Made by a program: the position numbers and the translations under genes. From NCBI GenBank assembly GCA_017519045.1, contig JAFWTC010000078.1, positions 1-59,053 on the forward strand: a stretch of DNA of 59,053 nucleotides. The letters run 5' to 3'. The notes under the pieces are model-generated. The model was not told the DNA's origin and did not search any database. It worked only from the letters and a program-made list of their open reading frames with translations. This stretch comes from Candidatus Methanomethylophilaceae archaeon (GTDB lineage Archaea > Thermoplasmatota > Thermoplasmata > Methanomassiliicoccales > Methanomethylophilaceae). Of this stretch, positions 25,174 to 49,947 are shown piece after piece (the stretch's first letter is position 1; each line of letters starts with the position of its first letter).

Positions 25174-28100
25174 ATGAAGGTCAAGGTACTGGACAACGGA
25201 TGTCATGATGAGGAGAGGAAGCTCAAGGTGGTCCACATCGTCGGAGGGATGATGGCGACGGACTACATGGGCCCCGCGTTCGACCAGCTTGCCGAAACAG
25301 GCGTGGACATCAGGGCCGTCAGCACCACCTCCGAGCTGCTCGACTCCGATGCCGAGGCCATGGCCGGCGTCCTCGATTTCGCCGAGGAGGCCGACTTCAT
25401 CATCGTAAACGTGCACAGCGACCCTTCCCACTTCGGCAACATCGACAAGCTCTCCAACATCGCCTCCCGGGAGAAGATCCCGTTCTTCCTGTTCTGCAAC
25501 AACAAGGAGCCCATGGAGGAGTACCGCGACTTCGCCCTGCTGAACGACGAGGAGTACTCCCTCGTGTCCAAGTACATCGAGCTGTCAGGCGAAGCCAACT
25601 GCCAGTCGGTGCTCATCTGGGCGTGCAACCGCTTCGCCGGGACCGACCTGCCCGTCCCGGAACCGCACGTGGAGGCGCCCCAGGGGATCTACGGCACCGA
25701 GCTCCCCGAGGAGGAGTTCCTGCTCTCGATCGACCCGGGGCGGCCCTGCGTCGGCGTGCTGTTCCCGGCGCTCTACAACGTCCAGAACAACACCGGATAC
25801 GTCGACGCGCTGATCTCCGGAATGCGGTCCCTGGGCACCCAGGTCGTGCCCGTCTACTTCACGTCCACCCCCAGCGAGACCAGCGGCTCCCTCGGCATCC
25901 TGGGCGTCATCGAGAGGTACTTCATGCGCGACGGTGCCCCCATCGTCGGCTCGGTGGTCTTCGCCACCGGGTTCTCGCAGCTCTCGCTCTGCGGAAGGGA
26001 CATCCAGGAGGCCAAGGTGATCCTGAAGTCGTTCGACATCCCGCTGGTGCAGGCGCCCAACATCCTCCGCAGCCGCAAAGACTGGGAGGAGGACACCGTG
26101 GGCATGACCACCATCGAACTGTCCACCAACATCTACCAGCCGGAGTTCGACGGACAGATCATCTCCGCCCCCCTGTCCTTTAGAGAACGGGATGCGGACG
26201 GCATCTTCCGGATGGTGACGGTGGACGACCGGGTCCGGAGGATCGCGGAGCTGGCCACCGCCTGGGCCCGCCTGCGGCTGAAGCCCATCGGGGAGGTAAG
26301 GGCGTTCATCATGCTCAACATGTACCCCCCCTCCAACGACCGCCTGGGCGGCGCGGGCGGCCTCGACACCTTCGAGAGCATCCGCCTGTTCATGCAGAGG
26401 CTGGCCGACAGCGGCTTCAAGCTCGACAAGGTCCCGGAGACCTCCCGGGAGATAGTCGACGAGCTGCTGGCCGGGCTCACCCCTGACATGGAATGGGTCC
26501 CGCCCGAGCAGATCCCGGGCCGGGCCGCGGACATGATCGAGCTCCGGCAGTACCTGGACTGGCTGGACGCGGAGCCGGAGAAGGTGCGCACGGCGATATG
26601 CCGCAACTGGGGCGACCCGCCGGGGGAGCTGTCGGTGCTCGGCGACCGGATGATAGTGCACGGGGTCCGCAACGGCAACCTGTTCATCGGCATCCAGCCC
26701 AACCGGGGGCACCACGCGAACGCCGAGCAGTACTACCACTCCGCCGACTCAGTGACCCCGCACCAGTACCTGGGCTACTACCGGTGGATCCGCGACGTGT
26801 TCAAGGCGGACATCCTGATCCACATGGGCACCCACGGCACCCTGGAATGGCTCCCGGGGAAGGGCAACGGCCTGTCGCGCTGCTGCTACCCGGACGCGGT
26901 GCTGGACTCCATACCCAACGTGTACCCGTACATCATCGACGACCCCGGCGAGGGGATGGAGGCCAAGCGGCGCACGGACTCCGTCCTGATCGGCTACATG
27001 GTGGCATCGATGACCCGGGCGGACTCCTACGAGGAGATGGCGGACCTGGACGCCGCCCTCCAGATGTACCTCAACTCCAACACCGGCGAGAAGAAAGAAG
27101 GGCTCCTCGACACCATCTACGGATGCCTCTCCGAGCTGGACCTGTGGAAGGAGATCGGGCTAGAACCCGGCGCGCCGAAGGAGGAGGTCGCCGGCATGGT
27201 CGACTCCCTGTACGACTACATCTGCGACCTGAAGGACGCCGTCATCAAGGACGGCCTCCACATCCTGGGCAAGGTCCCCGAGGGGAAGCGCATGGAGGAG
27301 ATGGTCTATTCGATGACCCGCCTCCGCAACGGCGAGGTCCCCTCGCTGAGGAAGTCGGTCGCCGCCGCCAAGGGCCTCGACCTCGACGCCCTGCTGGACT
27401 CCCCGTCGGCCTGCACCGGCGGGAGGCTCAACGGCGCATGGGTGGACGAGATCGACCGGGAATGCTGCGGCATGATCTCCGACATCATCGCCAGCGGCTT
27501 CGACCGGGAGCGGTCCCCGCCGTCGGACGGAGGGGCGATGGGGACGATAATGGACTTCATCTGCGGGCCACTCCGCTACGGCATCACCCACATATCCGAC
27601 GAGCGCGACAACCTGCTCGGCGGGATGACGGGCGGATACGTGCCTCCGGGCCCCTCCGGCTCGCCGACCAGGGGCAACGCCCATCTGCTGCCCACCGGCA
27701 CCAACTACTTCTCCATCGACCCGTACGCCATCCCCAACGCCTCCAGCTGGGACATCGGGGTGAAGATGGCCGACGCCATGCTGGACAAGTACGTGGAGGA
27801 CAACGGCAAGTATCCCGAGAACGTCGCCATCGTCGTCTGGGCCACCGACACCATGAAGACCGGCGGCGACGACATCGCCTACATCCTCTACCTCCTGGGC
27901 CTCCGCCCGCGCTACTCCTCGTACGGGGGCAGGGTCGTGGGGCTCGACGTCATCCCACTGGAGGAGCTGGGGCGCCCGAGGGTCGACATGACCTTGCGCA
28001 TCAGCGGCATGTTCCGCGACTCCTTCCCCAATCTGGTCGAGCTGATCGACGGCGGGGTGGAGATGGTCTCCGAGCTGGACGAGGGCGACGAAAGCAACTT

Positions 28101-28923
28101 CCTCAGGAAGCACCTGCGCGAGGACATGGCCAAGCGCATATCGGAGGGCCTCTCCGAGCAGGAAGCCCGGGACCGGTCGCTGATCCGCATCTTCGGCGAC
28201 CCGCCCGGACAGCACGGATGCGGCACCGGGATCCTCATCGAATCGTCCAAGTGGGAGACCATCGAGGACCTGGCCCAGGTGTACACCGTCTGGGGCGCGT
28301 ACGCGTACGGGAGGGGGTGGAAGGGGGAGAAGGTCGAGAAGGAATTCATCGACCGGATGTCCGCCCAGGACGTGACGGTGAAGAACCACAACGACCGCGA
28401 GTTCGACCTGCTGGACATCGACGACGACTACGAGGTCCTCGGCGGCCTGAACGCCGTGGTCAGGGCCTACGGCAAGCACAAGCCCGCCACCTACATGGGG
28501 GACAGCTCGGACACCGACCGGCTCAAGCTCCGCTCTCTCGAGGAGGAGACCGCCTACGTCATGCGCAGCCGGGTGCTGAACCCCAGATGGTTCGAGGGGC
28601 TGAAGCCGCACGGCTTCCGCGGGGCCATGGAGCTGTCCAAGCTCACCGAGTACATGCTCGGATGGGACGCCACCTCCGACAACATCGAACCCTGGATGTA
28701 CAAGGCGGTCACTGAGAAGTACGTCCTCGACGACGAGAACCGCAAGTGGATCGAGGAGAACAACCCGTACGCGATGCACGAGATGATCGACGACCTCCTC
28801 GAGGCCATCGACCGGGACCTATGGGACGCCCCCGAGGAGATCCGCGAGCGGCTGCGCGACCTGTACCTGGAGAGCGAGGGCCTGCTGGAGATGCTGAACA
28901 ACGACGAGCGAGGTCGCTCTTGA
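25174..28923 (+). CDS. CobN/BchH-like chelatase large subunit 1
   Basis: 1,249 residues. Family: porphyrin/corrin-binding large subunit of the three-component ATP-dependent chelatases (CobN for cobalt, BchH/ChlH for magnesium). The conserved active-site stretch HMGTHGTLEWLPGKGNG starts at residue 550, with its GTHG histidine and the following Glu intact. Other signatures are YIIDDPGEG, LLPTGTNYFSIDP, ATDTMKTGGDDIAY and FGDPPGQHGCG. It would work with the ChlI/ChlD-like AAA+ pair at 45.5-48.4 kb. The metal and tetrapyrrole are not decidable from sequence. It starts the plus-strand side of the cluster. Confidence 0.92.
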   Translation: MKVKVLDNGCHDEERKLKVVHIVGGMMATDYMGPAFDQLAETGVDIRAVSTTSELLDSDAEAMAGVLDFAEEADFIIVNVHSDPSHFGNIDKLSNIASREKIPFFLFCNNKEPMEEYRDFALLNDEEYSLVSKYIELSGEANCQSVLIWACNRFAGTDLPVPEPHVEAPQGIYGTELPEEEFLLSIDPGRPCVGVLFPALYNVQNNTGYVDALISGMRSLGTQVVPVYFTSTPSETSGSLGILGVIERYFMRDGAPIVGSVVFATGFSQLSLCGRDIQEAKVILKSFDIPLVQAPNILRSRKDWEEDTVGMTTIELSTNIYQPEFDGQIISAPLSFRERDADGIFRMVTVDDRVRRIAELATAWARLRLKPIGEVRAFIMLNMYPPSNDRLGGAGGLDTFESIRLFMQRLADSGFKLDKVPETSREIVDELLAGLTPDMEWVPPEQIPGRAADMIELRQYLDWLDAEPEKVRTAICRNWGDPPGELSVLGDRMIVHGVRNGNLFIGIQPNRGHHANAEQYYHSADSVTPHQYLGYYRWIRDVFKADILIHMGTHGTLEWLPGKGNGLSRCCYPDAVLDSIPNVYPYIIDDPGEGMEAKRRTDSVLIGYMVASMTRADSYEEMADLDAALQMYLNSNTGEKKEGLLDTIYGCLSELDLWKEIGLEPGAPKEEVAGMVDSLYDYICDLKDAVIKDGLHILGKVPEGKRMEEMVYSMTRLRNGEVPSLRKSVAAAKGLDLDALLDSPSACTGGRLNGAWVDEIDRECCGMISDIIASGFDRERSPPSDGGAMGTIMDFICGPLRYGITHISDERDNLLGGMTGGYVPPGPSGSPTRGNAHLLPTGTNYFSIDPYAIPNASSWDIGVKMADAMLDKYVEDNGKYPENVAIVVWATDTMKTGGDDIAYILYLLGLRPRYSSYGGRVVGLDVIPLEELGRPRVDMTLRISGMFRDSFPNLVELIDGGVEMVSELDEGDESNFLRKHLREDMAKRISEGLSEQEARDRSLIRIFGDPPGQHGCGTGILIESSKWETIEDLAQVYTVWGAYAYGRGWKGEKVEKEFIDRMSAQDVTVKNHNDREFDLLDIDDDYEVLGGLNAVVRAYGKHKPATYMGDSSDTDRLKLRSLEEETAYVMRSRVLNPRWFEGLKPHGFRGAMELSKLTEYMLGWDATSDNIEPWMYKAVTEKYVLDDENRKWIEENNPYAMHEMIDDLLEAIDRDLWDAPEEIRERLRDLYLESEGLLEMLNNDERGRS

Positions 28924-29422: not shown

Positions 29423-29448
29423 GTGTCTCCCTCCCGTGCGGGCATCAT

Positions 29449-29497
29449 TCAAATCAATTAGGTACTATTTACCTGTTCATCACTATCTTTATAAAAC
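29449..29497 (+). promoter_or_regulatory. nifH-like promoter: shared element plus TATA box
   Basis: TCAAATCAATTAGGTAC at 29449-29465, then TTTATAAA starting at 29488, a 22-base gap identical to the CobN1 promoter. On the other strand the element lies ~27 bases before the HTH gene start and could act as its operator as well. Confidence 0.75.
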
Positions 29498-29541
29498 GTC
29501 CGCGGAAATCGGAGGCTATCTCCAATTCAGGATATGTGACC

Positions 29542-30381
29542 ATGATTCAGATAGCAGTGTACGGGAAGGGAGGCATCGGCAAGAGCACGGTCTCTGCCAA
29601 CGTCTCGTTCATACTCGCGCAGAAGGGAAAGAAGGTCCTGCAGGTCGGATGCGACCCCAAGCACGACTCCACCAGGCTGCTGCTGGGCGGCCAGGAGCAG
29701 CGCACCGTCCTCGACTACATCAGGAGCACCGCCCCCTACGACCGGAAGCTGGAGGACATCCTGATGAACGGGTCCAACGGCGTCAGATGCGTCGAGGCCG
29801 GCGGACCCGAGCCGGGGATCGGCTGCGCGGGCAGGGGGATCCTCTCCACCTTCGACGCGTTGAAGAAGCTGGGCGTCGACCGGATCGACACCGACGTCCG
29901 GCTGTACGACGTCCTGGGAGACGTGGTCTGCGGCGGCTTCGCCGTGCCGCTGCGCAACGAGTACTCCGACGCAGTCTTCATCGTGACCTCGGGCGAGTTC
30001 ATGTCCATCTACGCGGCCAACAACATCCTGAAGGGGCTCCGCAACTTCGACAACGGGGTCCCCAGGGTGGCCGGCATCATCCTGAACAGCCGCGGCAACG
30101 AGGACGAGTACGAGACGGTAAAAAGGTTCGCGGATGCCGTGGGCCTGCCCATCGTCGCCGCCGTCCCGAGGGATGCGGTCTTCGCGCAGGCGGAGGCGAG
30201 AGGCTGCACCTCCGCCGAGTTGTTCCCCGATTCCGCAGCGGTGGGGGAGATCCGCAAGGTCGCCGACCGCATCATCGGCATCATGGACGGCGAGGTGGAG
30301 CTCCACCATCCCAGCCCGCTCACCGACGCGGGACTATCCGACTACGCCAAAGGGCTCCCGGTCCAGCCCCAGAAGAGCTAG
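29542..30381 (+). CDS. NifH/BchL-like iron protein (group IV nitrogenase-like reductase component)
   Basis: 279 residues to the TAG at 30379. P-loop GKGGIGKST (8-16), the two cysteines that bridge a [4Fe-4S] cluster between subunits (GCAGRG, Cys95; VVCGGF, Cys130), and DPKHDST of switch I. It is an ATP-dependent electron donor to a NifDK/BchNB/CfbD-type partner, which follows directly. The window has two partner subunits, unlike CfbCD of F430 synthesis, which uses one. True nitrogen fixation is unlikely, as no nifE/N/B or cofactor-binding residues are seen. Its frame continues in register through the TAG into the NifD-like protein. Confidence 0.92.
   Translation: MIQIAVYGKGGIGKSTVSANVSFILAQKGKKVLQVGCDPKHDSTRLLLGGQEQRTVLDYIRSTAPYDRKLEDILMNGSNGVRCVEAGGPEPGIGCAGRGILSTFDALKKLGVDRIDTDVRLYDVLGDVVCGGFAVPLRNEYSDAVFIVTSGEFMSIYAANNILKGLRNFDNGVPRVAGIILNSRGNEDEYETVKRFADAVGLPIVAAVPRDAVFAQAEARGCTSAELFPDSAAVGEIRKVADRIIGIMDGEVELHHPSPLTDAGLSDYAKGLPVQPQKS
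30379..30381 (+). other. In-frame TAG joining NifH-like and NifD-like frames
   Basis: The NifH frame (ending PQKS) meets TAG and continues in the same frame as DGVACGGCRP. There is no ATG, GTG or TTG in frame between 30382 and 30513. Conserved NifD-type sequence begins within that interval. Only one other gene in the window ends in TAG. Amber readthrough as pyrrolysine, or initiation at an unusual codon, are the alternatives. Confidence 0.6.
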
Positions 30382-31689
30382 GACGGGGTCGCCTGCGGCG
30401 GCTGCCGGCCGGCCTCCGTCCGGGACCGCTCCGAAATCGGGACCGAGCGGACCATCATCCACAACTGCGCGGCGGCCGGCGCCACCTACCCGCTGCTCTA
30501 CCTGGAGGATGCGGTGACCATCGTCCACGGGCCCAGGAGCTGCGCCCACATCTTCGCCTCGTCGATGGACCTGGTGGAGATGAAGCGCGCCGACCGGTCC
30601 ACCCTGGCCTCCTCCCGGCTCAGGTGCACGGACATGGACGACTCCGTCTCCGTGTTCGGCGGCCTCGACCTGCTGAGGGACAGGATACTGGATGAGATCA
30701 ACTCCGGCCGCAGGTACATCTTCGTGGTCACCGCCTGCGTATCCGGCATCATCGGAGACAACGTCCCCGACCTGGTCGAAGCGATCGGCCGCGAGCACCC
30801 GGAGGTGTTCATCAGGGCCGTGATGGCCGACGGGAACATCCTGGGCGAATGGGACAAAGGGTACGTGGCCAGCGCCGAGGAGCTGCTAACCCTGGTGGAC
30901 GACCGGGTGCGGCCCGAGAACGGCTATGTGAATCTTATCGGGGAGAGGTACTTCTACCGGCAGGAGAGGGACATGAGCGAGGCCGCCGAGCTCTTCGAGA
31001 TGTTCGGCCTCGAAGTGAACTGCCACCTGATGTACAGGACCTCAGTCGACGACATCAGGAACTTCCGCCGGGCAGACCTGACCGCGATCGTCGAGGTGGA
31101 CAAGGTCTCGATGGCGCTGGCGGCGATGGTGGAGAACCGGCTGGATATCAGGGTCGAACGGGACCTGATCCCGACCGGCATAAGGTCCTTCGAGCGCTTC
31201 GCGGAGCGCATCGGCGAAATCACCGGCGACCCCGGTCCTGCCATCGAGGTCGCCGCCAAGGTCAGAAACGAATACGACCGGAGCATGTCGCTTTACCGCC
31301 GCCGCACCGCGGGGAAGCGCGTCATCGTCATCTCCAAGTTCACCGAGGACATCGACTGGCTGCTGGAGCTGCTGGCCGACCTGGGGATGGACGTCCTCAA
31401 GGTGGGCATCGGCGTCAAGCACATATGGGCCCAGGAGGTCAAGGTCTCCGCATACCGCGACGACTACCGGTTCCAGAAGGACTACGAGCTCGAGGACCTG
31501 AGGAGGGACCTGGACGAGCTCGCGCCCGACGCCGTGGTGTCCGACAGCGGCAACCTGTATCTCGAGGAGTGCAGGTGCCTGATCTACAGCCGCCCCGGCC
31601 CGGGGGTCAGGGGGACACTCGCCCACGCCAGGAGACTCTATGACCTGATGGTCCTCCCCGAGGTTCCCGGATGGAGGTGCATAGAATGA
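30382..31689 (+). CDS. NifD/BchN-like catalytic subunit (group IV), start uncertain
   Basis: About 435 residues if read from just after the TAG. A start at GTG 30514 would cut off the conserved N-terminus. The N-terminal region carries cysteine pairs (ACGGC) and the P-cluster-type ligands HNCAAAGATYP and VHGPRSCAHIF. Further segments: CVSGIIGDNVPDL, MADGNI, and a C-terminal TLAHARRLYDLM. It resembles the alpha subunits of nitrogenase-like reductases (BchN/CfbD/NflD). No FeMo-cofactor His/Cys pair is evident. The stop overlaps the NifK-like start (ATGA, 31686-31689). Confidence 0.8.
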   Translation, partial: DGVACGGCRPASVRDRSEIGTERTIIHNCAAAGATYPLLYLEDAVTIVHGPRSCAHIFASSMDLVEMKRADRSTLASSRLRCTDMDDSVSVFGGLDLLRDRILDEINSGRRYIFVVTACVSGIIGDNVPDLVEAIGREHPEVFIRAVMADGNILGEWDKGYVASAEELLTLVDDRVRPENGYVNLIGERYFYRQERDMSEAAELFEMFGLEVNCHLMYRTSVDDIRNFRRADLTAIVEVDKVSMALAAMVENRLDIRVERDLIPTGIRSFERFAERIGEITGDPGPAIEVAAKVRNEYDRSMSLYRRRTAGKRVIVISKFTEDIDWLLELLADLGMDVLKVGIGVKHIWAQEVKVSAYRDDYRFQKDYELEDLRRDLDELAPDAVVSDSGNLYLEECRCLIYSRPGPGVRGTLAHARRLYDLMVLPEVPGWRCIE

Positions 31690-32957
31690 ACCGCACCGCC
31701 TTGGACGGCTTCGCCGCCGCGCTGCTGGCCGTGGAGAGCTTCACCGACGGCCATGCCGTGCTCCACGGGCCGGGAGGATGCCGGAACTACAACTCCTTCA
31801 CCTCTTCCCAGTGCTTCCCGAGGAAAGAGCGCCGGGACAACGAGAGGTTCTACGGGAAGTACTTCTTCGGCAACCGCCGGTTGCCATGCACCTACGTGGA
31901 CGAGTACGACTACATCAACGGCACCAAGGAGAAGCTGATGGACTCGATCCCCATCATATGCGATTCGTTCCCCGGGGAGTTCTGCGTGTTCGTCCAGTCC
32001 CCCGGAGTCGCCCTGATCGGCGACAACATCACCGACTGCATCGCCAAGGCCGGCTACTCGAACCGGGCCGCCGCCGTCAACGAGTCCTTGATCTCCCAGC
32101 CCTTCGCCCCGAGCTACGACCACACCGTGCTGACCGTCCTCAAGTGGATGCACCCCGCCAGAAGGAAGGCCAGGAAGGGCACGGTCAACATCCTGGGGCT
32201 CCCGATCACCGCCAACGATTGGTCTGTCGCCCTGGAAGAGTTCCGCGGCCATCTGGAATCCATGGGCCTGGAGGTAATCAGCGCACCGGGCGCCGGCTGC
32301 AGCTCCGAGGAGCTCAGGGCCTCGGTGGAGGCGGAGTTCAACGTCGTCATCCAGAGGGAGTACTGCCGCCACACCGCCGACTACTACCGCGACGAGTACG
32401 GGATCGAATGCATCGAATGCGACCAGGGCGCACCTGTCGGCTTCGACGCCCTGGAGTCCTGGATCGACCGGATCGCGGAAGCCACCGGCGCCGACCCGGA
32501 GAAGCCCAGGGAGAAGATCATGGACGCCAAAAGGCGGGCGTTCCGCATCCTCTCCTCCACCGTCTACCTGAAGAGCCCGAAGTACCGCCGCTTCTCGGTG
32601 GTGTCCGAGAGCTCGGTGGCCCTGCCGCTGACCAGATGGCTGTTCAGCTACCTGTTCATGATGCCGGCCGCCGCAGTGTGCACGAAGGGCTCCGACCAGG
32701 AGTACCGCGGGCGCCTGTCCGGTTTCCTGGAGGGGATCGACTGCCCGGACGCCATGGACCGCGACCCCGACGGGGCGGAGACCTCGTACCTGTTCGCGGA
32801 CGGACAGTACGCCGCCCTGGCCGAAGCCACCGGCCTGTGCGATAAGGGCATCGACATCGGCCTCCCGAGCCTGCTGAGGGTCAACTTCCTGTCCCGCCCG
32901 ATCTTCGGGATCCACGGCGCCATGTATCTCCTGGACGAGATCTTCAGACGAGCCTGA
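31686..32957 (+). CDS. NifK/BchB-like subunit (group IV)
   Basis: 423 residues from ATG 31686, which has GGAGGTG upstream and overlaps the NifD stop; an ATG at 31671 is an alternative. Conserved features: HGPGGCRNYNSF (first cysteine ligand), RRLPCTYVDEYDYINGTKEKL (second), the VFVQSPGVALIGDNI segment and NILGLPITANDW. It pairs with the NifD-like protein as a hetero-oligomer using NifH as reductase. The last 14 bases overlap the convergent CobN2 gene. Confidence 0.82.
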   Translation: MNRTALDGFAAALLAVESFTDGHAVLHGPGGCRNYNSFTSSQCFPRKERRDNERFYGKYFFGNRRLPCTYVDEYDYINGTKEKLMDSIPIICDSFPGEFCVFVQSPGVALIGDNITDCIAKAGYSNRAAAVNESLISQPFAPSYDHTVLTVLKWMHPARRKARKGTVNILGLPITANDWSVALEEFRGHLESMGLEVISAPGAGCSSEELRASVEAEFNVVIQREYCRHTADYYRDEYGIECIECDQGAPVGFDALESWIDRIAEATGADPEKPREKIMDAKRRAFRILSSTVYLKSPKYRRFSVVSESSVALPLTRWLFSYLFMMPAAAVCTKGSDQEYRGRLSGFLEGIDCPDAMDRDPDGAETSYLFADGQYAALAEATGLCDKGIDIGLPSLLRVNFLSRPIFGIHGAMYLLDEIFRRA

Positions 32958-35900
32958 AGGAGGGGCCCTCCTCGATGGCCCCCTCGGCATCGAGGTAGGC
33001 GTCCCTCAGCGCCATCAGGGTCTTGGCCGGCGCATGCCAGACGCCGTCCTCCACCGCCTTGTACATGTCGCTGACGATGTCCCTCATCGCGAAGGGGTTG
33101 TTGGCGAGCATCCACTGGCGCACGGTATCGCTGAGCACATAGCGCTCGGTGACCCCCTGGAACATCCAATCCTTCACCACGTCGGTGTGGGTGGCCCATT
33201 CGAACAGCCCGTGGATGATGCGGCTCAGCTCCCCCGCGCCGACGAAGCCGTGGTCCATCATCCGGGAGATCCACTTGGGATTGAGGATGCGCCCCCTCAT
33301 GACCAGCGACATCTCGGTGGAGAGGGTGCGAACCTCCTCCCCCACCAGCATGACCTGAGCATCCTTGTTCAGCCCCTTCTCCATGGCTATCGACCGCATC
33401 AACGACTCCATGTTGCCGCCGAACAGGTCGAAAGAGCTCACGGCGGTGACATCTATCCGGCCGCTCCACCACCTGAATTGTATCGAAGGGGTCAGACCGT
33501 CCCCTTCGGCCATGGGCGCCGCACCCTCGGGCCCGGACCCTTCCTCCTCCAGGAACATGCGCATCCTCGACCGTGCCCGGGCGCCGACGGAGTCCACGCC
33601 CTCGCGGATGTACTTGGTCATGTCCTCCGAGAGATGCCGGCGGATGGCGTTGCTCTCCTCCTCCTCCTCGTCCAGCCCGGAGACCAGGTCCAAGGCCTCC
33701 TGCAGGAGCAGGACCAGGTTAGGGAAGGTGTTCAGGAACATGCTGCTGGTGCGGAAGACGACGTCCACCCGCGGACGGCCCAGCTCCTCCAGGGGTATGA
33801 CCTCGAGCCTGGACACGTGCCCATGGCGCCAGACCGGCCTGACCCCCATCAGCCTGAGCGCGTAAGACACCTCGTCCCCGCCCGTGTTAATCAGATTGGA
33901 GACGCCCATGCTGATTGAGATGGTGCTGGGATACTTCCCATTGATGTCAACATACCTCTTCACGACCTGCTCCGCCACGGCGGAGCCGGTCCCATAGCTG
34001 AGCTGGGTCGGCACCAGGGTGGGATCCATGGAGCAGAAGTTCCTCCCTGTGGGGAGGATCTGCAGGTTCCCCTCCTTGAGCGAGCCGGGCAGCCCGGGCA
34101 TGATGAATCCCCCCCGGAGGCCGCCGATCACCGCGTCCATCTCGTTCCTAATGCCCACCAGCTTGGGACGGACCTCATCGCAGACGAAGGAGACCACCGA
34201 CTCCAGGCTCTTGTCCCCGCCGCAGAGGGGGAGGCAGTCCTCGGCGACGAAACCTCTCTCGGCCATGTCCCCGATGAAAGCGGAGAGGGCGTCGCCCCCG
34301 CCCTCCTGGGACGTCCGGACCGCCTCCAGGGCCTTCACCAGCGAGGCACGGCGCCTCTCGTCGGTAGCGACCAGCTCCTCGATATACTCCAGCAGGCCCT
34401 TGCCCTTGGGGACATCGCCGAGGATATGGAGCCCATAGCTACTGCTGTAGCCCTTGATCTCCTGGATATAGCGGTAGAACACGTCCAGGTACGCGATTAT
34501 CCCGCGGTCCGTTATCTCCTCGGGCAGGCAGAGGTCGTGGAGGATGCCCATCCTCCGGACCAGGCCGATGATCCGGGGCTCGATGATGTCCAGCTTCTCC
34601 TGCAGCGAGGATGAGCTGAAGAGCATGTGCTGCTGGATCAGCGAATCCAGCTCCTCCAGGTCCCCGTAGGCGCCGGACCTGAGGGTGGGCGCGTCCACGT
34701 AGCCCACCAGCACCGAGTTGGTGCGGCGCTTGGCGACCATCCCACCGCCGGCGTCATCGACCGCGAACAGGTAGAGGTTCGGCAGTGCCCCGATGAGGAT
34801 GTCGGGCCAGCACTCCGCCGACAGGTTCACCGTCTTGCCCGGCATGCTCTCCAAAGTGCCGCGGGAACCCATGTGGACCACCACATCCGCTCCGAACACC
34901 TCCCTGACCCACCTGTAGAAGGCATAGTACTGGTGCGAAGGGACGCTGACCCTATAGTCGAGCTCGGCATACGTCCGGGGCTGCACCCCGATGAACACGT
35001 TGCCGTCGATGACCCCGGGGATGGGGATGCCACCATCCTCGGTGAGTATGCCGCCGGGCAAATCGCCCCATTCCCTCTCCATTTCCCGGCACTTGGCATG
35101 CGGCAGGTCCATCGCCCATTTCGCGTAGAGGCCCCCGGACACGGACAGGCCGCCCGGGCTCGGAGACGACTGCCCATATGGCCCGTATACCGTCCCGGCG
35201 CTCTTCAGCAGCCGGTCCAGGAGCTCGCCCTCACGCTTCGGGATCCAATCGATCTTGAAACCCTCCTTGGAGAGCCGCATGAGCAGCCGCCTGAGGCTGC
35301 TGAACGCATCGAACCCCGAGGCGAGACCCAGCCTTCCTTCGGACTGCCCGCCGGAGTTCAAAATGAGGGCCACCTTGAGGGCGCCGATCGGCTTGCGCTT
35401 CAGCCTCGCCCAGTTTAGACCCATCGATGCGATCTTGTCGACCCGGTCGGGGATGCAGTCGTAGCGGAAGTTCCCCTGCAGGTCCGAGCCTACGAAGCAG
35501 AACGGCACCGAGATTATCTGGCCGTCCATCTCCGGCTGGACGATGGTCGAGGCCAGGGAGGCCGCGTCGAGCACGCTGTCCCGGTTCTTCCACTCGTCGA
35601 CGGTGGCGTTGACTATCCCCGCCTGGATGATCGGGACGTTCAGCTTGGCGAAGATGTTGCTGATGAATCCGTCCGAGCCCCCTCCGATGTTGAGGGCGTT
35701 GTGGGAGAAGCCCCCCACGAGGATGACCGAATCCACCAGGGACCGGCGGCCGCGCATCAGATACCTCTTGATGACCCCCGCCGTTCCGATGGACCCGATG
35801 CCCTTGTCGGGGACCGACATGAAGAACACCGGGAGCGCCTGTCCCCCCTTGGCCTCGATCGATTGGACCAGGGCATCGATGGCGAAGAGGTTGTTCTCCA

Positions 35901-38070: not shown

Positions 38071-38079
38071 GGTGGAAAT

Positions 38080-39994: not shown

Positions 39995-41115
39995 ACGGCG
40001 AGCAGGTGGGGGACCCCATCGAGGTCCAAAGGCTCCCCGGCGGGCAGAGGGTGTACCGGCACGGCCGGTCCCTGGTCGTGCTCCCGAAGGAGGACAGCGC
40101 GGTGCTGTCGTCCGCCTACTACCATGGCGGCGTCTTCGACCGGCCGTCCGCGGTCTTCAACACCACCGGCATCGGCGGGGAGGCCGAGATGGACCTCATG
40201 CACGGTCCCAGGGAGAACTATCTGGAGTACTGCTCCAGATGCGCTGAGAAGATCGGACTCGACCCCGCCACGGTGGTCGGGCTCGGCACCGCGGTCACCA
40301 TGGACAAGGCGGCCGTCGTCTCCGAGACCTTCGGGAACCTGTCGGTCTCGGCCGTGGTCACCGCCGGCGTGGAGGGAAACGGCGGACGCGTCGGCGACCC
40401 CGCCTCCTACGACGAGACCGAGAAGTACCACCGCCCGAGCGGCACCATCGTCATCATCCTGGTGGTAGACGCCGACCTCCCGGTCCAGACCATGGCCCGG
40501 TGCATCATGACAGCCACCGAGGCCAAGACCGCGGCGCTGCAGGAGCTGATGGCGTCTAGCAGATACTCCGAAGGCATCGCCACCGGATCCGGGACCGACC
40601 AGATCGCCGTCGTCTGCGACCGCGGTTCGGAACTTCGCCTGACCGATGCGGGAAAGCACTCGAAACTGGGGGAGCTGATCGGCAGATGCGTGCTCGCGGC
40701 GGTGAAGAGGGCGCTCGGGAACTGGGCGGGGATGACCCCGGAGTCCCGGATGGATGCCCTGATCAGGCTCGACCGCTTCCGCATCCCCCCGGATTTCTAC
40801 ATCGACGCCGCCGACGCCTCCGGAAGAGACGGCTTCGCGGAATCGCTCGCGGAGACGGCCCGCCGTCCCGAGGTGGTGGCCGCGGCCGCGGCCGCCATCC
40901 ATCTCCACGACGAGATGGCCTGGGGCATCTGCGACCGGAGGTCCGGGACCGAGCTCGCCCGCAGGACGATCGCATCGGTCTGCCCCGGATTCGAGCCCGA
41001 CATGGACGAGGGCATCCCCCGCGCCCTGGCGAGGGCGGTCTCCCGGCTCGCCTTGCGGTCCCTTGACCGAGCGGACCCCTGGAGAAATATCCCTTCACCG
41101 AATCCAGATCTGTGA
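39970..41115 (+). CDS. cbiZ: Adenosylcobinamide amidohydrolase CbiZ
   Basis: 381 residues. The CbiZ domain occupies ~45-240 (NTTGIGGEAEMDL, SAVVTAGVEGNGGRVGDPASY, IATGSGTDQIAVVCD). CbiZ cleaves the aminopropanol arm of adenosylcobinamide to give cobyric acid for salvage. An unusual helical C-terminal extension (~245-381) follows. Its location directly after an importer of the BtuFCD class supports corrinoid or precorrin salvage. The final ~350 bases are overlapped on the other strand by the frame of the isochorismatase gene; the CbiZ family residues are not in that overlap. Confidence 0.85.
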   Translation: MVTWRKVLDGEQVGDPIEVQRLPGGQRVYRHGRSLVVLPKEDSAVLSSAYYHGGVFDRPSAVFNTTGIGGEAEMDLMHGPRENYLEYCSRCAEKIGLDPATVVGLGTAVTMDKAAVVSETFGNLSVSAVVTAGVEGNGGRVGDPASYDETEKYHRPSGTIVIILVVDADLPVQTMARCIMTATEAKTAALQELMASSRYSEGIATGSGTDQIAVVCDRGSELRLTDAGKHSKLGELIGRCVLAAVKRALGNWAGMTPESRMDALIRLDRFRIPPDFYIDAADASGRDGFAESLAETARRPEVVAAAAAAIHLHDEMAWGICDRRSGTELARRTIASVCPGFEPDMDEGIPRALARAVSRLALRSLDRADPWRNIPSPNPDL

Positions 41116-41599
41116 ATCTCGCGAACAGCTCCGCCGCCTCGTTGATCCTGTCCTCGGTGGAGATAAGCGCACCCCTGCCGAGATAGGGTTTGAACCCATG
41201 GTCCCAGGCCGAATAGTACGTGGACATCACGCAGGCCTGCGTGACCATCCCGACGATGACCAGCCCCTCGTTGCCGAATCCCCGGAGAACCTCCTCCAGC
41301 CGGCTGTCCTGGAAACTGTTCATGCGGGTCTTGTCGACGACGGGGTCCTCGGTACGCGCATCGATGCCGTCCAGCCAGGCGTCGCCGTCATCCCCCTCAT
41401 AGACCAAGTGGAACTCTGGGGTGTACCTGACGAACACCACCGGGGCCCCGGACCGCCTGAACTCGGCGATGTAGCCGTTCATGGCGGCGACCGCGGCACG
41501 CCGGACCTCCGGCCAGTCATCGCGGTCCAGCTGGAACTTCCTCTGCGGGTCGATCAGCACCAGGCTCAGACCGTCCTCGGACATCTCCCGGACGGCCAT
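40763..41599 (-). CDS. Isochorismatase-family cysteine hydrolase
   Basis: Starts at ATG 41599. Residues ~1-175 are a complete isochorismatase fold with the D-K-C triad: LVLIDPQRKF (Asp), VDKTRMNSF (Lys) and MVTQACVMST (Cys). Members hydrolyse isochorismate, nicotinamide or related amides. The frame then lacks a stop and runs antisense to cbiZ to 40763, adding ~100 Arg/Pro-rich residues that are probably meaningless. It overlaps the 3' tail of CobN3 by 83 bases and would be co-transcribed with it. A role in processing a cofactor side chain is possible but not shown. Confidence 0.8.
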   Translation of the reverse strand: MAVREMSEDGLSLVLIDPQRKFQLDRDDWPEVRRAAVAAMNGYIAEFRRSGAPVVFVRYTPEFHLVYEGDDGDAWLDGIDARTEDPVVDKTRMNSFQDSRLEEVLRGFGNEGLVIVGMVTQACVMSTYYSAWDHGFKPYLGRGALISTEDRINEAAELFARFTDLDSVKGYFSRGPLGQGTARRAGRPPSPGRGGCPRPCRARIRGRPMRSSCGRARSRTSGRRCPRPSRRGDGWRPRPRPPPRDGGPSPRAIPRSRLFRRRRRRRCRNPGGCGSGRA

Positions 41600-44500
41600 G
41601 TCGCTCGCCCCTCTTGTCCGCGGCCATCTCCTCCAGCATCCCTTCGGCCTCCAGGTATAACTCGCGCAGCCTGGAGAGAGTCTCATCATCGGGCTCCCAC
41701 ATGTCGCGGTCGACCGCCTCGAGCAGGTCCTCCAGGATGTCCTTCAGCGCATAGGGATTCTCCTTGGCGATCCATTCGTAGTTGTCTTGGTCGAAGAGGA
41801 AGTGCTCGATCAGCGACTGGTACATCCACGGCTCGATGACATCGGAGGTCGCATCCCATCCAAAGACATGATTGATGTCCTCATGCACCCAGGCGGCCCC
41901 GGTGAAGCCATGGTCCTTCATGCTCTCCACCCACTTGGGGTTGAGCACCCTGGTCCTGAGGATGTAGGCGATCTCATGCTCCAGGTCACGGGTCTTGATC
42001 CGGTCGGGGTCGGAGGTGTCGCACAGGTAGTTGACGGGAATCTCTCTCCCGGCGGCGCGGCACACGGCGTTGATGCCGCCGAGGAAGGCGTACCCGTCGT
42101 CGATGTCTACGAGGTCGATCTCGCGGTCGACCTGGTTCTTGACGGCCACGTCGAGGCTGACCAGGCGGTGGCGGAAGGTCTCGGGCATCTTCTCTCCCCG
42201 GTGCTTCCTCCCGTAGGCGCTGCAGCCGAAGGTGATGTAGATCTCCGCGAGGTCGCCGACATCCTTCCACTTCCTCGACTCGATGAGGGTGTTGACGCCG
42301 GCGCCGTACACCCCGGGAGGCTCGCCGAACACGCGGACCATGGCCCGGTCCTGGGCCGTCTCCGCGGACAGGCCCTCCTCGATCATCCGGGCGATGTCCT
42401 GCTTCAGATGCTTCCTCAGGTAGTTGTCCTCGTCCGACTCCTCGACATTGGCGGCCAGCTCCACCGCCTCGTCGATCAGCTGGAAGAGGTTGGGGAACGT
42501 GTCCCTGAAGAGGCTGCTGATGCGGACGGTCACATCGATGCGGGGCCGCTTGAGCTCCTCGCGGCTCATGACCTCCAGGCCGGTGATCTTGCCTCCCACC
42601 GAACCCCAGACCGGGCGCACCCCCAGAAGGTAGAGCACATAGGCGACGTCATCGCCGCCGGTCTTCATGGTGTCGATGGACCAGATCACGATCCCGACGC
42701 TCTCGGGATACTTGCCCTCCCGCTCTATGTAACTGCGGACCATATCCTCGGCCATCTTCTGGCCGGCCTTCCAGCTCTCCTCCGACGGGACCGTCTCCGG
42801 GTCGAGCGAGTAGTAGTTCTTGCCGGTGGGCAGGAGGTGGGCGTTGCCGCGCGAGGGGGCCCCCGAAGGGCCGGGAGGGACGTATCCTCCGGCCATGCCC
42901 ACGATCATGTTGTTGATCTCGTCCTCAATTCCGCAGATGTTGGGGTAGAGCTCCTCGCATATGTAGCCGGTCACCGAGGCGATATCATCGTCCTCGCCGA
43001 ACTCCTCCTCCATCATCGCCAGCGCCTTCCCGCGGTCGTAGCCGGTCTGGCGGATGGCGGTCACGCACTCCTGCATCCGATCGTCGATGAGGTCCACCAG
43101 CTGCCCGTTGAGCTTGCCGGTGGAAGGGTCCACCTCCGACATGTGATCGAGGAGGTGGTCCAGGTCGTACCCCATGTTCTTGGCGATGGACCTCCGGAAG
43201 GAGGGGATCCGTCCGTTCTTGAGGCGGGTGAGGCAGTAGATCATCTCGTCCAGCTTCTCCTCCTGGGGGATGTCGCCGGCGATGTGCAGACCATTGATCA
43301 TCAGGCCGTCCTTGAGCTCCGTGACGTAGTCGAAGACGACCTCGCACTTGGAGAGTATCTGGTCGGAAGGCGTTCCCTCCGGGATCCCCAGCTCCCCCCA
43401 CAGGCTCAGCTCGCCGATGAGCTGGCAGATCTTCTCCCCCTCCGACTCCATCTTCGAGCTCTGCATGGTCTGCTTGGCGTACAGGTATCCCTGGAGGTGC
43501 CCCTCCAGATCGCCCAGCTGGTCATAGGTGCCGGCCCGGGCCAGGGACGGCATCAGGTAGTCGACCAGGATTGATTTCTTCCTCCGCTTGGCCACAATCC
43601 CCTCCGAGGGGTCGTCGATGACGTAGAGGTAGAGGTGGGGGAGGTCCTCCATCATGATGTCCGGGAAGCACTCACGGGAGAGACCGTTGCCTTTCCCGGG
43701 GAGCCATTCGCAGGAGCCGTGGGTGCCGATGTGCAGATGGACGTCGGTCTTGAAGACCCTCGAGATCCAGCGGTAGTAGGCGTAATAGTGATGAGGCGTC
43801 GAGAGGTCGGGGTCGTGGATCAGCGCCTCCGCCTGCTCATGCTTGCCCCGGGGAGGCTCGAACCCGATGTACACGTTGCCGTTGAGCACGCCGGGGATGA
43901 TGAAGCGGCCCCGGTGGGACATGATCTCGCCGGGAGGCTGGCCCCAGTTGCGGCACACCCACTCCATGTATCCGGGCGCCTCCTCCTCGGTCCATCCAGT
44001 GTACTCCTCCGTGTCCAGGAAGTCGGCCGCCCGCTCCTCGATGGTCTCCTCCGTGTCCCAGTCCAGGTTGTCAGTGATGTTGGCCAGCAGCTCGTCGATG
44101 AGCTCCCGGCTGTTCCGGGGCACATGGTCGATGGTGTAACCCTCCTGCTTCATCCTCGCCAGCAGCCTGCAGACGCTCTCGAGGGCGTCCAGCCCCCCGG
44201 CCAGGCCGATGGAGGCGTTGGAGAGGGAGCTGGCGTTGAAGAGCATCGAGACCTTGCGCTCGCTGGTCGGCACCATGTGCACCTTGGACCACCTGACCGC
44301 CATGCGGGCGATCCTCTCCAGGCGGTCGGGGATGAAGCTGCGGTACTCGATGCCGTTCTCGTCCTTCTCGGTGAACACGTAAGGGACGGAGGTCAGCTGG
44401 CCGTCCAACTCGGGGAGGGCCACCGACACGCAGAGCTCGCCGCCGTCCATGCCGATGCCGTCGTTCCTCCACTCCTCCTGGGAACGGAACATCGCCAACG

Positions 44501-45398
44501 AGGCGATGACGGGCACGTTCAGCTCCTGGAAGTAGTTACGGAAGCCTTCCCGGCTGCCGTCCCCGGGGTTGGCCAGCGCCAGCGACGAGAATCCGAGGCC
44601 GCAGAGGATCAGCGCATCCACCAGGCCCCTCCCGTCCCTCGTCAAATACTCGCGCATCACGCCGGACAGGCCGATGGAGCCGTTGATGTCGCTCTGGATA
44701 ATGTTCAGGAACACCGGGAGGGCGTTGGCGCCGTGCTTCTCCACATATCCGATGATGAGGTCCTGCGGCTCCAGGTCCCCGTTCAGCCAGGACTGCTGGC
44801 CGATCAGGATCCCGACGGTGGGCTTCGAGGGGTCCAGCGTCGCCATGTAGTCGTCGAGGGAGATGTCCCGGGGCATCCCCGGATGGTACACCCCCTGCAT
44901 CCTCTCCATCTTGGGCTCCGGGACCGCGAGCGAGGGGTCGCCGTAGAGCTTGACCAGATACAGCAGAAGGTTCCGGCGGTTCTCCCGCCCGTCCAGGGAC
45001 AGGTACTTGGTGATGGCGATGTACTCCTCAGCATCACCCAGAAACATGGAGGAGGCCTCCTTCATGGATTCCGGCATCGCACAGGTTAGGTACGTGTTCA
45101 CCCGGTGCTTCTCGATATCCTTCTTGAGGGCATCGTACTTCTTGTAATCGCAAACGTCACCGTGAATGTCAACGACCAGCAGGTCGCAGCCGACTATCTC
45201 GTCCCGCAGCGCCGAGAACTCCATCGGATCGCGGACGGTCTCCTTGCCGTCGAAGACGATAAGGTCCAGGTCGGCGCGGTCGAGGGATGTCGACTCGCAT
45301 TCCTCCCCCAGACTGTTGGTTCCCTTATTCCCGCCGATCTTCAGGTAGACTACCTTCACATGCCCGCCGTCGGACCGCTTGCTCCTGTATATCCTCAT
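41517..45398 (-). CDS. CobN/BchH-like chelatase large subunit 3
   Basis: 1,293 residues. All CobN hallmarks are present: LHIGTHGSCEWLPGKGNGLSR, VIDDPSEG, LLPTGKNYYSLDP, SIDTMKTGGDDVAY and VFGEPPGVYGAGVN. It is closest in motif content to CobN1. The conserved part ends at about EGMLEEMAADKRG; the last ~30 residues overlap the isochorismatase start. It lies downstream of the ChlI-ChlD genes on the same strand, so it is the most likely cognate large subunit of that AAA+ motor. The long hairpin just before its start may modulate its expression. Confidence 0.92.
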   Translation of the reverse strand: MRIYRSKRSDGGHVKVVYLKIGGNKGTNSLGEECESTSLDRADLDLIVFDGKETVRDPMEFSALRDEIVGCDLLVVDIHGDVCDYKKYDALKKDIEKHRVNTYLTCAMPESMKEASSMFLGDAEEYIAITKYLSLDGRENRRNLLLYLVKLYGDPSLAVPEPKMERMQGVYHPGMPRDISLDDYMATLDPSKPTVGILIGQQSWLNGDLEPQDLIIGYVEKHGANALPVFLNIIQSDINGSIGLSGVMREYLTRDGRGLVDALILCGLGFSSLALANPGDGSREGFRNYFQELNVPVIASLAMFRSQEEWRNDGIGMDGGELCVSVALPELDGQLTSVPYVFTEKDENGIEYRSFIPDRLERIARMAVRWSKVHMVPTSERKVSMLFNASSLSNASIGLAGGLDALESVCRLLARMKQEGYTIDHVPRNSRELIDELLANITDNLDWDTEETIEERAADFLDTEEYTGWTEEEAPGYMEWVCRNWGQPPGEIMSHRGRFIIPGVLNGNVYIGFEPPRGKHEQAEALIHDPDLSTPHHYYAYYRWISRVFKTDVHLHIGTHGSCEWLPGKGNGLSRECFPDIMMEDLPHLYLYVIDDPSEGIVAKRRKKSILVDYLMPSLARAGTYDQLGDLEGHLQGYLYAKQTMQSSKMESEGEKICQLIGELSLWGELGIPEGTPSDQILSKCEVVFDYVTELKDGLMINGLHIAGDIPQEEKLDEMIYCLTRLKNGRIPSFRRSIAKNMGYDLDHLLDHMSEVDPSTGKLNGQLVDLIDDRMQECVTAIRQTGYDRGKALAMMEEEFGEDDDIASVTGYICEELYPNICGIEDEINNMIVGMAGGYVPPGPSGAPSRGNAHLLPTGKNYYSLDPETVPSEESWKAGQKMAEDMVRSYIEREGKYPESVGIVIWSIDTMKTGGDDVAYVLYLLGVRPVWGSVGGKITGLEVMSREELKRPRIDVTVRISSLFRDTFPNLFQLIDEAVELAANVEESDEDNYLRKHLKQDIARMIEEGLSAETAQDRAMVRVFGEPPGVYGAGVNTLIESRKWKDVGDLAEIYITFGCSAYGRKHRGEKMPETFRHRLVSLDVAVKNQVDREIDLVDIDDGYAFLGGINAVCRAAGREIPVNYLCDTSDPDRIKTRDLEHEIAYILRTRVLNPKWVESMKDHGFTGAAWVHEDINHVFGWDATSDVIEPWMYQSLIEHFLFDQDNYEWIAKENPYALKDILEDLLEAVDRDMWEPDDETLSRLRELYLEAEGMLEEMAADKRGERHGRPGDVRGRSEPGADRPAEEVPAGPR

Positions 45399-45418
45399 AT
45401 GGCCTCACTTCTTCCATG

Positions 45419-45482
45419 AAAAAACGATAAGGGCCCCATGCGGCTCCGGCCAATCCGATTTCAAACGCCGGAGCCGCATGGG
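45419..45482 (-). terminator. Long hairpin with T-run between ChlD-like and CobN3 genes
   Basis: A perfect 16-bp stem (45435-45450 with 45467-45482, CCCATGCGGCTCCGGC and its complement) and a 16-base loop. On the minus strand it is followed by CGTTTTTTC (T-run ~45419-45424). It sits 36 bases before the CobN3 ATG, leaving no room for a separate promoter, so it may be a partial terminator or processing site within one transcript. Confidence 0.65.
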
Positions 45483-45487
45483 TCCCA

Positions 45488-47404
45488 TCACCCTTCGATC
45501 GCATACTTGACCGAGCACTCGATGTACTCGGCGTTCAGGTTCTCCAGCCTGAGATAGGTGCCGTCCAGCGCCCGGCACAGCTCCAGCGCCAGGCCGAACT
45601 GCATGCGTCCGGCCTCGGTGTCGATGACGATGAAGCGGATCCCCGTCTTCGACAGGGACCTCGCCGTCGAGAGCATCTCGTCGACGGGTTTCTGGCCGCT
45701 GGTGTAGGCGACGTTGCACCGCCCGTCCGAGAGGATGACCATCACCGGGCGGGAGTCCTTGCCGTCGACCCCCTTCAGGATGTCATATCCCTTCAGCAGA
45801 CCGTGGATCAGGGGCGTCCTGCCCCCGGTGGGGATGTCCTGGAGGACGTTGTAGGCCTTCAGGATGCTCTTGGTGAGGGGCAGCACCTCCTCGGCAGTGT
45901 TCATGCGGAAGACTGCCATTCCGATGCGGTCCCGCTTCTGGTAGGCGTCCTTCAGCATCGAGAGGATGGCCCCCTTGACCGCCACCATACGCTTCTGGGC
46001 GCCGATGGAACCGCTCCCGTCCACCAGGAATAGGATGCTGTTGCCCTGCCGCTTCTCACGGACCTTCTCCCTGAGGTCCTCCCTCTTGAGGACGATGGCC
46101 AGCTCCGAATGGTCACGGTAGATCTGACTGGGAGCGGAGGCGCGTATGCTGGCGCACAGCGCGATGTCGGACACCTTGCCCTTGGGGATCCGGTACCCGA
46201 TGACCTTGCCGGCGGAATCGCGGATGTTGGCGCCAGACCGGCGCCCGGAGACGCCCTGATTGAGAGTGGCGTTCTCCTTCGGCATGTAGTCGACCACCTT
46301 GTAGACGTCCCCGATGTCGAACACCTGCTCCTGCATCCCGTCAGGGTCCACGGGCGGGGGGACCTCGGCATCGCCCTCCTCGGGCGGCCGCTGCTCCTGC
46401 TGGTCATCCGGCTCCTCGGGCGGCCGGTCCTGATCGTCCTGCTGCTGATCGTTCTGCTGCTCCTCCGGTTCTTCGTCCTCCCGGTCGTCCGGGGGATCCT
46501 CGGAGGGCTGCTGGTCCGGCTGCTGTTGCTGCTCGGGAGGGTTGTTCCTGCGATGCTCCAGGCACATGGCAGCGGCGTCCTTCAGATGGTCCAGGTTGGC
46601 GAGGTCCTTCCCGTCGAGGGCCGCCAGGGTGCAAGCGGCATTCATCACCGAGATGTCGCCCCGGTGCCCGGCGACGTTCAGCTGGTTGCAGACTTCGGAG
46701 ATGGCGGCGCAGTATCCCTCGGGCACCCGGGTGAAACGCGCTCTGGCACGTGCCTCGGTGACCTCGTCCCGCATCCTCCCGGTCTCCTCGGCGAAGGAGA
46801 GGATGAACCCCTCCGGGTCCTTCTGGAAGGAGAGGCAGCGCTCGCAGAGCGTCATCCTCAGCTCCTCGTCCTCCAATGTAGACAGGAACACGCAGATGTC
46901 AAAGCGGTCCAGAAGATGGTCGGATATCCCTCCCTCCTCCGGATCCATGGTGGCCACGAAGAGGAAGCGGCAGTCGTAGGTCTCGGAGATGCCTTCCCGC
47001 TCCACGACGTGGAAGCCGTTCTCGGCGGCGTTGAGCACCTGGTTGAGGACATAGTCGGGCAGGAGATTGACGTCATCCACGAACAGTATGTTGCCGTCCG
47101 CCCGGAGGAGTACGTTGTTGGAGAGCACCCGCCTGCCTTTGCGGAGGGTCTCCTCCACGGACATGCCGCCGAATATCTGGTCCTCAGAGGAATTGAGCGG
47201 GAGGTTCACTACCTTCCTGCCCTCGGCGATGTCCTCCATGGAGCGCGCGAGGACGGATTTGCCCGTCCCCTTCGGCCCGCAGATCAGCACCGAATGGATG
47301 TCTGCCGACGACGCCGCCACCTTCAGCGCCTTCCGGGCGAGGTCGTTGCCCACGAAGGCGGCGAACGGATAGTTCAGTTGGTCCCGAAGGTGCTCTTGAG
47401 CCAT
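45488..47404 (-). CDS. ChlD/BchD-like chelatase subunit (AAA+ plus VWA)
   Basis: 638 residues. The N-terminal AAA+ domain keeps Walker A ([11 protein letters not shown]) and Walker B-like [10 protein letters not shown], with sensor segment TMDPEEGG. A Gln/Glu/Asp/Pro-rich linker (~285-350) leads to the C-terminal VWA domain with [14 protein letters not shown] and TGGRTPL. It forms the second ring of the ChlI-ChlD motor, which remodels the CobN/BchH subunit during metal insertion. The start overlaps the ChlI-like gene by 31 bases. Confidence 0.92.
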
Positions 47405-48408
47405 GCGTCCAATTCCTCGCTGTTGAGGTTCGAATCCTGGAAGGGATTCCTTCTCATGCGGTGCGGCATGACCAGCTTGGCCACGTGGGTGACGTCGGAA
47501 GGGTAGACCTCCGTGCGCATCTGCATGGCCGCATAGGCCTCCGCGGCCTTGATCAGCGTGAGATCGGAGCGGTGCCCGTCGACCCCCAGATGCAGGGAAA
47601 TCCTGACCGCGGCGCGGATTACATCCCTGCCGGCGTCTATGCCCTTCAGCAGCTCGCGCGCCTTCAGGATGTTCTCGCGTATCTGGGCGTTCTGCTCCCG
47701 GTAGTCCTTGCAGAAGCTCTCGGGGTTCTTCTCGAACTCCATGCGGCGTTCGATGATGTCGGTCCTCCGGTCCTCGTCCTTCTCCGATACGACGTCCACC
47801 ATCATCCCGAACCTGTCGAGGAGCTGGGGCCTCAGGTCGCCCTCCTCCGGATTCATGGTCCCGACCAGGATGAACTTGGACGGGTGCGAGTAGGAGATCC
47901 CCTCCCGCTCGATGTAGTTGACCCCCATGGCGGCGGCATCGAGGAGCAGATCCACGATGTTGTCGTCGAGAAGGTTGATCTCGTCGACGTACAGGATGTT
48001 GCCGTTGGCCTTAGCCAGCACCCCCGGCTCGAACCTCTTCTTCCCGGTGGTGATGGCGGCCTCGATGTCGAGGGTCCCGGCCACACGGTCCTCGGTGGAG
48101 CTCAGCGGCAGCTCGACCACCGACATCGGCACGGCGGTGGACGGGAGCTCCCCCTCCTTGCGCCTTTCCTGGCATTCCGGGCACATGGCCCCCGGCACCC
48201 TCGGATCGCATCCGCAGGGGCATCCGAGCACCACTTCGCGCTCCGGGAGCAGACCCGCCAACGCCCTCACGGCAGTCGACTTGGCCGTCCCCTTCTCACC
48301 ACGGATCAGCACACCACCGATCAAGGGATTGATGGTATTCAATATCAGGGCCTCTTTCATATCCTCTTGCCCAACGATAGCGGAGAACGGGAATACCGGT
48401 CTGTTCAT
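47374..48408 (-). CDS. ChlI/BchI-like AAA+ chelatase subunit
   Basis: 344 residues from ATG 48408. Walker [11 protein letters not shown], Walker [13 protein letters not shown], sensor [19 protein letters not shown] with the Arg finger. A four-cysteine insert (GCPCGCD...CPEC) lies after the first strand and probably binds zinc. It is the ATPase that drives the chelatase. It is the first gene of the minus-strand ChlI-ChlD-CobN3 group, with a TTATATA box ~40 bases before the ATG and the shared upstream element further out. Confidence 0.94.
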
Positions 48409-48444
48409 GATATTGCCTCTAGAAATACCGATTGAGAATATCCA

Positions 48445-49697: not shown

Positions 49698-49707
49698 CGA
49701 ATTCGGA

Positions 49708-49931: not shown

Positions 49932-49947
49932 AGGTTTGAAGGCTTTC

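Follow-up and report, generated by a model that had tools for sequence, protein, structure and literature searches.

Why would a gut methanogen keep a nitrogenase-like reductase beside three large-subunit chelatase homologs, their ATPase motor, and importers of the BtuFCD type? The window analyzed here, the whole stretch of 59,053 nucleotides of contig JAFWTC010000078.1 from a Candidatus Methanomethylophilaceae archaeon of the order Methanomassiliicoccales, contains such a combination. Only a few nitrogenase-like enzymes have a known role, in N2 fixation, the synthesis of chlorophylls and F430, or C-S cleavage. We propose that the cluster is probably a corrinoid salvage or remodelling system built around a new clade of nitrogenase-like reductase.

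Cluster layout and the fused NifHD protein

The cluster spans positions 25174-53339 and uses both strands. The plus strand carries, in this order, CobN1, NifH, NifD and NifK, followed by an importer composed of a substrate-binding protein, FecCD permease and ATPase, and by CbiZ. The minus strand carries CobN2 and a CobN3-ChlD-ChlI group, with a second importer (48768-53339) upstream of ChlI. A preliminary description had limited the cluster to 25174-48408; its main components (NifHDK, CobN, ChlI/ChlD, importer, and CbiZ) are all present at about the positions given there, but the unit extends further right to include the second importer. The separate hydrolase listed in that description was not found; the open reading frame at 41063-41839 has no family match and is partly antisense to CobN3. 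To the left of the cluster, a phage-type integrase gene (21693-22970) lies beside a tRNA-Ser gene (21465-21549).

The NifH-like domain (29542-30381, plus strand; PF00142, 298 bits), in which the P-loop and both cluster cysteine motifs are readable, ends in a TAG codon at 30379-30381. The identical frame runs on into the NifD-like domain (30382-31689, plus strand; PF00148), which gives a single frame from 29542 to 31686. The NifD part has no ordinary start, because frame inspection showed no ATG, GTG, or TTG downstream of the TAG until GTG 30514, which directly precedes the P-cluster motif HGPRSC and is located past the first conserved cysteine. NifH-NifD fusions of about 715 amino acids were found many times in 60 related genomes, mostly without a stop codon, and about seven copies are present in the window's own genome. 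The preliminary description correctly reported a NifH and a two-subunit reductase, but missed that NifH and NifD share one reading frame with an in-frame TAG. We rejected an arrangement as two separate genes because of the continuous frame, the lack of a usual start after the TAG, and the relatives fused without a stop.

The amber codon in the NifH-NifD linker is most likely read through as pyrrolysine, as suggested by the uninterrupted fused relatives, by PylS encoded in the window's own genome, and by a second NifHD copy of that genome (L024) whose NifD domain is interrupted midway by a TAG. Pyrrolysine use is a known capacity of the order Methanomassiliicoccales (PMC4153887). Linker TAGs are also present in L041, L101, and L127, so that four of the eight TAGs seen in the NifHD family fall into the short linker, with a chance probability of approximately 0.0002 if 30 of the 715 positions are counted as linker. 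The mid-domain TAG of L024, the linker TAGs of L101 and L127, and the presence of PylS make an assembly error unlikely. The linker TAG might yield NifH alone as well as NifHD from one gene, although this is only a suggestion. In five other loci (L094, L105, L124, L149, and L168), NifH and NifD are located in different overlapping frames, owing to sequencing errors or frameshifts.

A reductase clade with a predicted [4Fe-4S] cluster

The NifK-like subunit (31671-32957, plus strand; PF00148) contains one cluster cysteine, in the motif HGPGGC. In a D/K tree with references, which is a quick tree with long reference branches, the D and K proteins of the family form two clades of their own, with SH-aLRT support of 99 each, outside NifD/NifE, MarD/K, BchN/BchY, BchB/BchZ, and CfbD. 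The pair thus belongs to none of the characterized clades, a placement in one of which would, according to the preliminary description, have refuted its proposal. The model scores of the window subunits are far below all family cut-offs compared, including the COR model TIGR02014 (26.6 versus 529), the BchB model TIGR01278 (54.9 versus 490), and the CfbD model TIGR03282 (29.6 bits for the window NifD versus 268.4). A true CfbD, with 382 bits, is encoded elsewhere in the same genome (G000:C4). The AlphaFold models of the two subunits are confident, with pLDDT values of 87 and 92; in structure searches the K model is most similar to BchB of DPOR, and the D model is similar to chains of nitrogenase and NifE. 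The parallels with chlorophyll and F430 synthesis drawn in the preliminary description are valid for the type of enzyme, but not for family membership.

The cluster cysteines of NifD are conserved throughout the family (C62 in 136, C88 in 138, and C154 in 140 of 140 sequences). In NifK, the equivalent of C95 is kept in all 120 sequences, whereas C70 is replaced by Asp or Glu and C153 by Pro or Leu in every one, so that the P-cluster cysteine set of nitrogenase and Mar lacks two of its three NifK cysteines. The cofactor ligands Cys275 (of nitrogenase and Mar) and His442 (of nitrogenase) are not conserved among the 140 family members; the commonest residues are N, S, D, G, Y, Q, and E at the position of Cys275, where the window NifD has D, and V, P, I, A, F, and L at that of His442. 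DPOR BchB has an aspartate ligand at the position of C95, which is cysteine in the present family. The resulting pattern of three NifD cysteines and one NifK cysteine is that of the BchY/BchZ reference of COR. Judged from these residues, namely the four retained cysteines and the absence of both FeMoco ligands, we expect the enzyme to be an ATP-driven two-component [4Fe-4S] reductase of the DPOR/COR type.

NifB was considered as an indicator of a FeMoco-like cofactor, and is uninformative because it occurs in 57 of the 60 genomes regardless of NifHD. In two Methanomassiliicoccus-like genomes (L067 and L068), NifD/NifE-like genes come after NifH, in what is apparently a true nitrogenase set.

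CobN paralogs and the corrinoid context

The class-I chelatase large subunit CobN1 (25174-28923, plus strand) has the intact motif THGTLEWLPGK and an intact C-terminal segment, and scores 890 bits against the TIGR02257 cut-off of 822. CobN3 (41517-45398, minus strand) contains the motif THGSCEWLPGK and passes the same model with 824.7 versus 822.05. Both therefore retain the THG-x-E motif, and PDB searches place both closer to CobN than to HmuS. In contrast, CobN2 (32944-36525, minus strand), with 537 bits, is below the cut-off; its THG-E motif is altered to GSRGTLES, and the C-terminal segment of approximately 96 amino acids is reduced to 49. From ChlH, we take this segment to hold active-site residues. 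The relatives of CobN2 in L027, L058, and L081 have likewise lost the THG-x-E motif and most of the segment, and in these loci, as in the window, the degenerate subfamily is kept beside intact CobN genes in NifHDK clusters. The motor subunits, both on the minus strand, are ChlD/BchD-like (45488-47404) and ChlI/BchI-like (47374-48447). The ChlI/ChlD/CobN chelatase with two extra CobN paralogs of the preliminary description is thus present, apart from the degeneracy of CobN2, which had been overlooked.

Among 60 genomes of the order, 34 contain both fused NifHD and CobN, two only NifHD, none only CobN, and 24 neither (Fisher 9e-15; rho of copy numbers 0.91, and 0.80 within genus), where relatedness is only partly corrected for. 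These counts were compiled by hand, include a few split CobN genes, and for G011 rely on a match truncated at a contig end. CbiC, which marks de novo corrin synthesis, occurs in 40 of the 60 genomes; several of these lack CobN, and G035 encodes CobN but no CbiC. Since CbiC does not track CobN, CobN cannot here be explained simply as the B12-synthesis cobalt chelatase. The window's own genome, of 1.9 Mb, has about ten CobN genes and 43 FecCD permeases; its close relatives without NifHD have no CobN.

The set of importer, CbiZ, ChlID, NifHDK, and CobN is also found in Methanospirillum and other Methanomicrobia, and in part in bacteria. A lack of co-occurrence in relatives, which the preliminary description had named as a refutation, was thus not observed. 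In another family of the order (L039 and L065), the order is substrate-binding protein-FecCD-ATPase-CbiZ-ChlI-ChlD-NifHD-NifK, to which CobN is convergent; the gene set of L032 is the same. The Methanomicrobia loci L115, L118, L122, L129, and L143 contain CbiZ-ChlI-ChlD-substrate-binding protein-FecCD-ATPase-NifHD-NifK in slightly varying order, and in the first three of these CobN and an ABC-2 exporter are convergent to the NifHDK set. L128 (Eubacteriaceae) has CobN-CobN-ChlD-NifHD-NifK, and L081 and L058 are rearranged versions of the cluster. Gene content remains constant while gene order changes, which points to function rather than to shared descent of a block. The plasmid pTS1 of Treponema saccharophilum (L090, 10001-16297) encodes a divergent unfused NifH and two nitrogenase-component-1 genes beside a FecCD importer; it was rejected as a close relative, as its NifD has no significant match.

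The first importer, on the plus strand, consists of a BtuF/FecB-type substrate-binding protein (36940-38070; PF01497, just below the cut-off), a FecCD/BtuC-type permease (38080-39147; PF01032, 272 bits; also matched by BtuC models), and a BtuD-type ATPase (39137-39994). It adjoins CbiZ, of the adenosylcobinamide amidohydrolase family (39970-41115, plus strand; PF01955, 189 bits). The second importer, on the minus strand, comprises a dockerin-domain protein (48768-49748; PF00404), an ABC ATPase (49948-50763; PF00005), a FecCD permease (50768-51907; PF01032, 294 bits), and the substrate-binding protein SBP2 (51981-53339; PF01497). FecCD importers also take up siderophores and heme, and with 43 permease copies in the genome the presence of an importer is by itself weak evidence of the substrate.

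Bacterial homologs also lie in a B12 context. Seven cobalamin riboswitches were found in 29 bacterial NifHDK loci, where the frequency in ten of the genomes predicts about one (Poisson 1e-4); counted by locus, five of the 29 have one (p 0.002). Control by cobalamin riboswitches is normally repression by B12, which suggests that the linked genes serve acquisition. In L141, a cobalamin riboswitch precedes a TonB receptor, NifHD, and NifK, with FecCD and a fusion of a substrate-binding protein to CbiZ nearby. In L136, the riboswitch is followed by an ABC/ECF ATPase, S-layer or surface proteins, a DUF4430 protein, NifHD, NifK, and an ECF S component. In L126 and L150, a DUF71 protein containing the motif ENGEFH abuts NifHD, and DUF4430 proteins and riboswitches lie beside it. 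The ENGEFH motif characterizes the B12-type subgroup of DUF71 (PMC3541065), and vertebrate B12 binders have DUF4430 as their C-terminal domain (PMC4350170).

In the window, we found no cobalamin riboswitch, DUF4430, or DUF71 gene, and DUF4430 is absent from the whole genome. Most Clostridia loci and many paralogs, among them several paralog clades, in the window's order have no CbiZ, CobN, or riboswitch nearby, and the corrinoid link may therefore cover only part of the family.

Proposed function and comparison with known systems

The preliminary description offered two readings, synthesis or remodelling of a metallo-tetrapyrrole and reductive modification of a salvaged corrinoid. CbiZ and the BtuCDF-type importers, together with DUF4430, B12-type DUF71, and cobalamin riboswitches at homologous loci, favor the second, whereas metallo-tetrapyrrole synthesis has no direct support. 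Judged from gene content and neighborhood, corrinoids are fairly likely to be the substrate class, and in our best reading NifHDK would be an ATP-driven reductase for imported corrinoids that is coupled here to the CobN/ChlID chelatase.

We infer the following scheme, which extends to the substrate, the reaction, the sequence of steps, and what CobN2 does. The two BtuFCD-type importers would bring in corrinoids, and CbiZ would cut the nucleotide-loop amide of the salvaged molecule. The fused NifHD would then pass single electrons, by ATP hydrolysis, to the [4Fe-4S] cluster, for which NifD would supply three cysteine ligands and NifK the fourth. The cluster may reduce a corrinoid that binds where NifD and NifK meet. 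The site of reduction would be the ring or else the cobalt, which would lose its upper ligand and go from Co(II) to Co(I). CobN1 and CobN3, with ChlI and ChlD, could subsequently insert, remove, or exchange the metal, and CobN2, having lost parts of its active site, may act as a partner or carrier. The most economical option, we propose, is reduction of the cobalt accompanied by loss of the upper ligand; to reduce the ring or exchange the metal would be more novel. More tentatively, the nitrogenase-type enzyme could reduce the corrin ring or the cobalt so that CobN/ChlID swaps the metal of scavenged corrinoids.

Another explanation is metal scavenging, in which metal is reductively removed from imported metallo-tetrapyrroles (heme, corrinoids, or chlorophyll derivatives), with CobN as a de-chelatase and NifHDK as the electron source. 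In gut bacteria, the CobN-like protein HmuS removes the metal from heme, for which it requires NADH rather than ATP (PMC12583661). Expansion of FecCD importers goes together with that of CobN in the same genomes, as would suit such a role. However, CobN1 and CobN3 are accompanied by the ATP-driven ChlID motor and are nearer to CobN than to HmuS, and CbiZ and the B12 markers at homologous loci speak for corrinoids and for expression under B12 limitation, not for iron, so that we consider scavenging unlikely. Also to be weighed is the synthesis of a new metallo-tetrapyrrole cofactor, with NifHDK reducing the ring and CobN/ChlID inserting the metal as for chlorophyll. The parts list equals BchHID plus BchLNB, the ligand set is COR-like, and genomes hold several paralogous sets; nevertheless, this route is rather improbable, because the cluster contains no other biosynthetic tetrapyrrole genes, its importers and CbiZ indicate uptake, and bacterial relatives without CobN are still found in a B12 context. 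That a known enzyme (CfbCD, DPOR, COR, Mar, or nitrogenase), to all five of which there is distant homology, merely stands in an unusual neighborhood with an ordinary B12 cobalt chelatase is highly improbable given the low scores, the separate D and K clades, the unconserved FeMoco ligands, the CfbD encoded elsewhere, and the lack of a tie between CobN and de novo corrin synthesis.

Our search of the open-access literature found no description of the NifHDK family, the gene combination, or its B12 link. A 'fused nifH/nifE' of Ca. M. intestinalis was named once, as an origin-flanking gene, with no family, partners, or function described (PMC4153887), and is probably a NifHD fusion of the window type. 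How Archaea use CobN/HmuS/ChlH homologs was stated to be unclear in the HmuS study (PMC12583661); that CobN occurs in Methanomassiliicoccales only with the NifHD reductase (60 genomes) bears on this question. Gut and rumen communities, methane producers included, are shaped by B12 exchange. If the clade is linked to B12 salvage in gut methanogens and gut bacteria, it would bring a new substrate class to nitrogenase-like enzymes. If the metal swap by CobN/ChlID is true, the nitrogenase superfamily would include a member that processes corrinoids, and B12 analogues would have a route of metal exchange.

The system resembles COR (BchXYZ) and DPOR (BchLNB) in combining a NifH-type ATPase with two NifD/K-type subunits in a tetrapyrrole context with CobN/ChlH and ChlID genes nearby, and COR in the one predicted interface [4Fe-4S] cluster with 3+1 all-cysteine ligands. 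It differs from both in the fusion of NifH to NifD, its own clade, scores far below the BchB/BchZ/BchY cut-offs, and the importer, CbiZ, and B12-linked context. CfbCD, the Ni-sirohydrochlorin a,c-diamide reductive cyclase of F430 synthesis, is also a nitrogenase-like tetrapyrrole reductase of methanogens, but CfbD is a single NifD-like subunit and is separately present in the genome. MarHDK and nitrogenase NifHDK/NifEN share the fold and the Fe-protein partner, whereas the window family has neither Cys275 nor His442, nor two of the three NifK P-cluster cysteines. CobNST, ChlHID, and HmuS correspond to CobN1 and CobN3, which pass the CobN cut-off, and to ChlI and ChlD; unlike in these systems, there are three CobN paralogs, one of them degenerate, tied to NifHDK, and the distribution of CobN is not accounted for by cobalt insertion in de novo synthesis. 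Although the described salvage by BtuFCD and CbiZ (or B12-type DUF71) uses no nitrogenase-like enzyme or CobN/ChlID chelatase, its importer and CbiZ are present in the window, and some homologous bacterial loci are located in B12-riboswitch operons.
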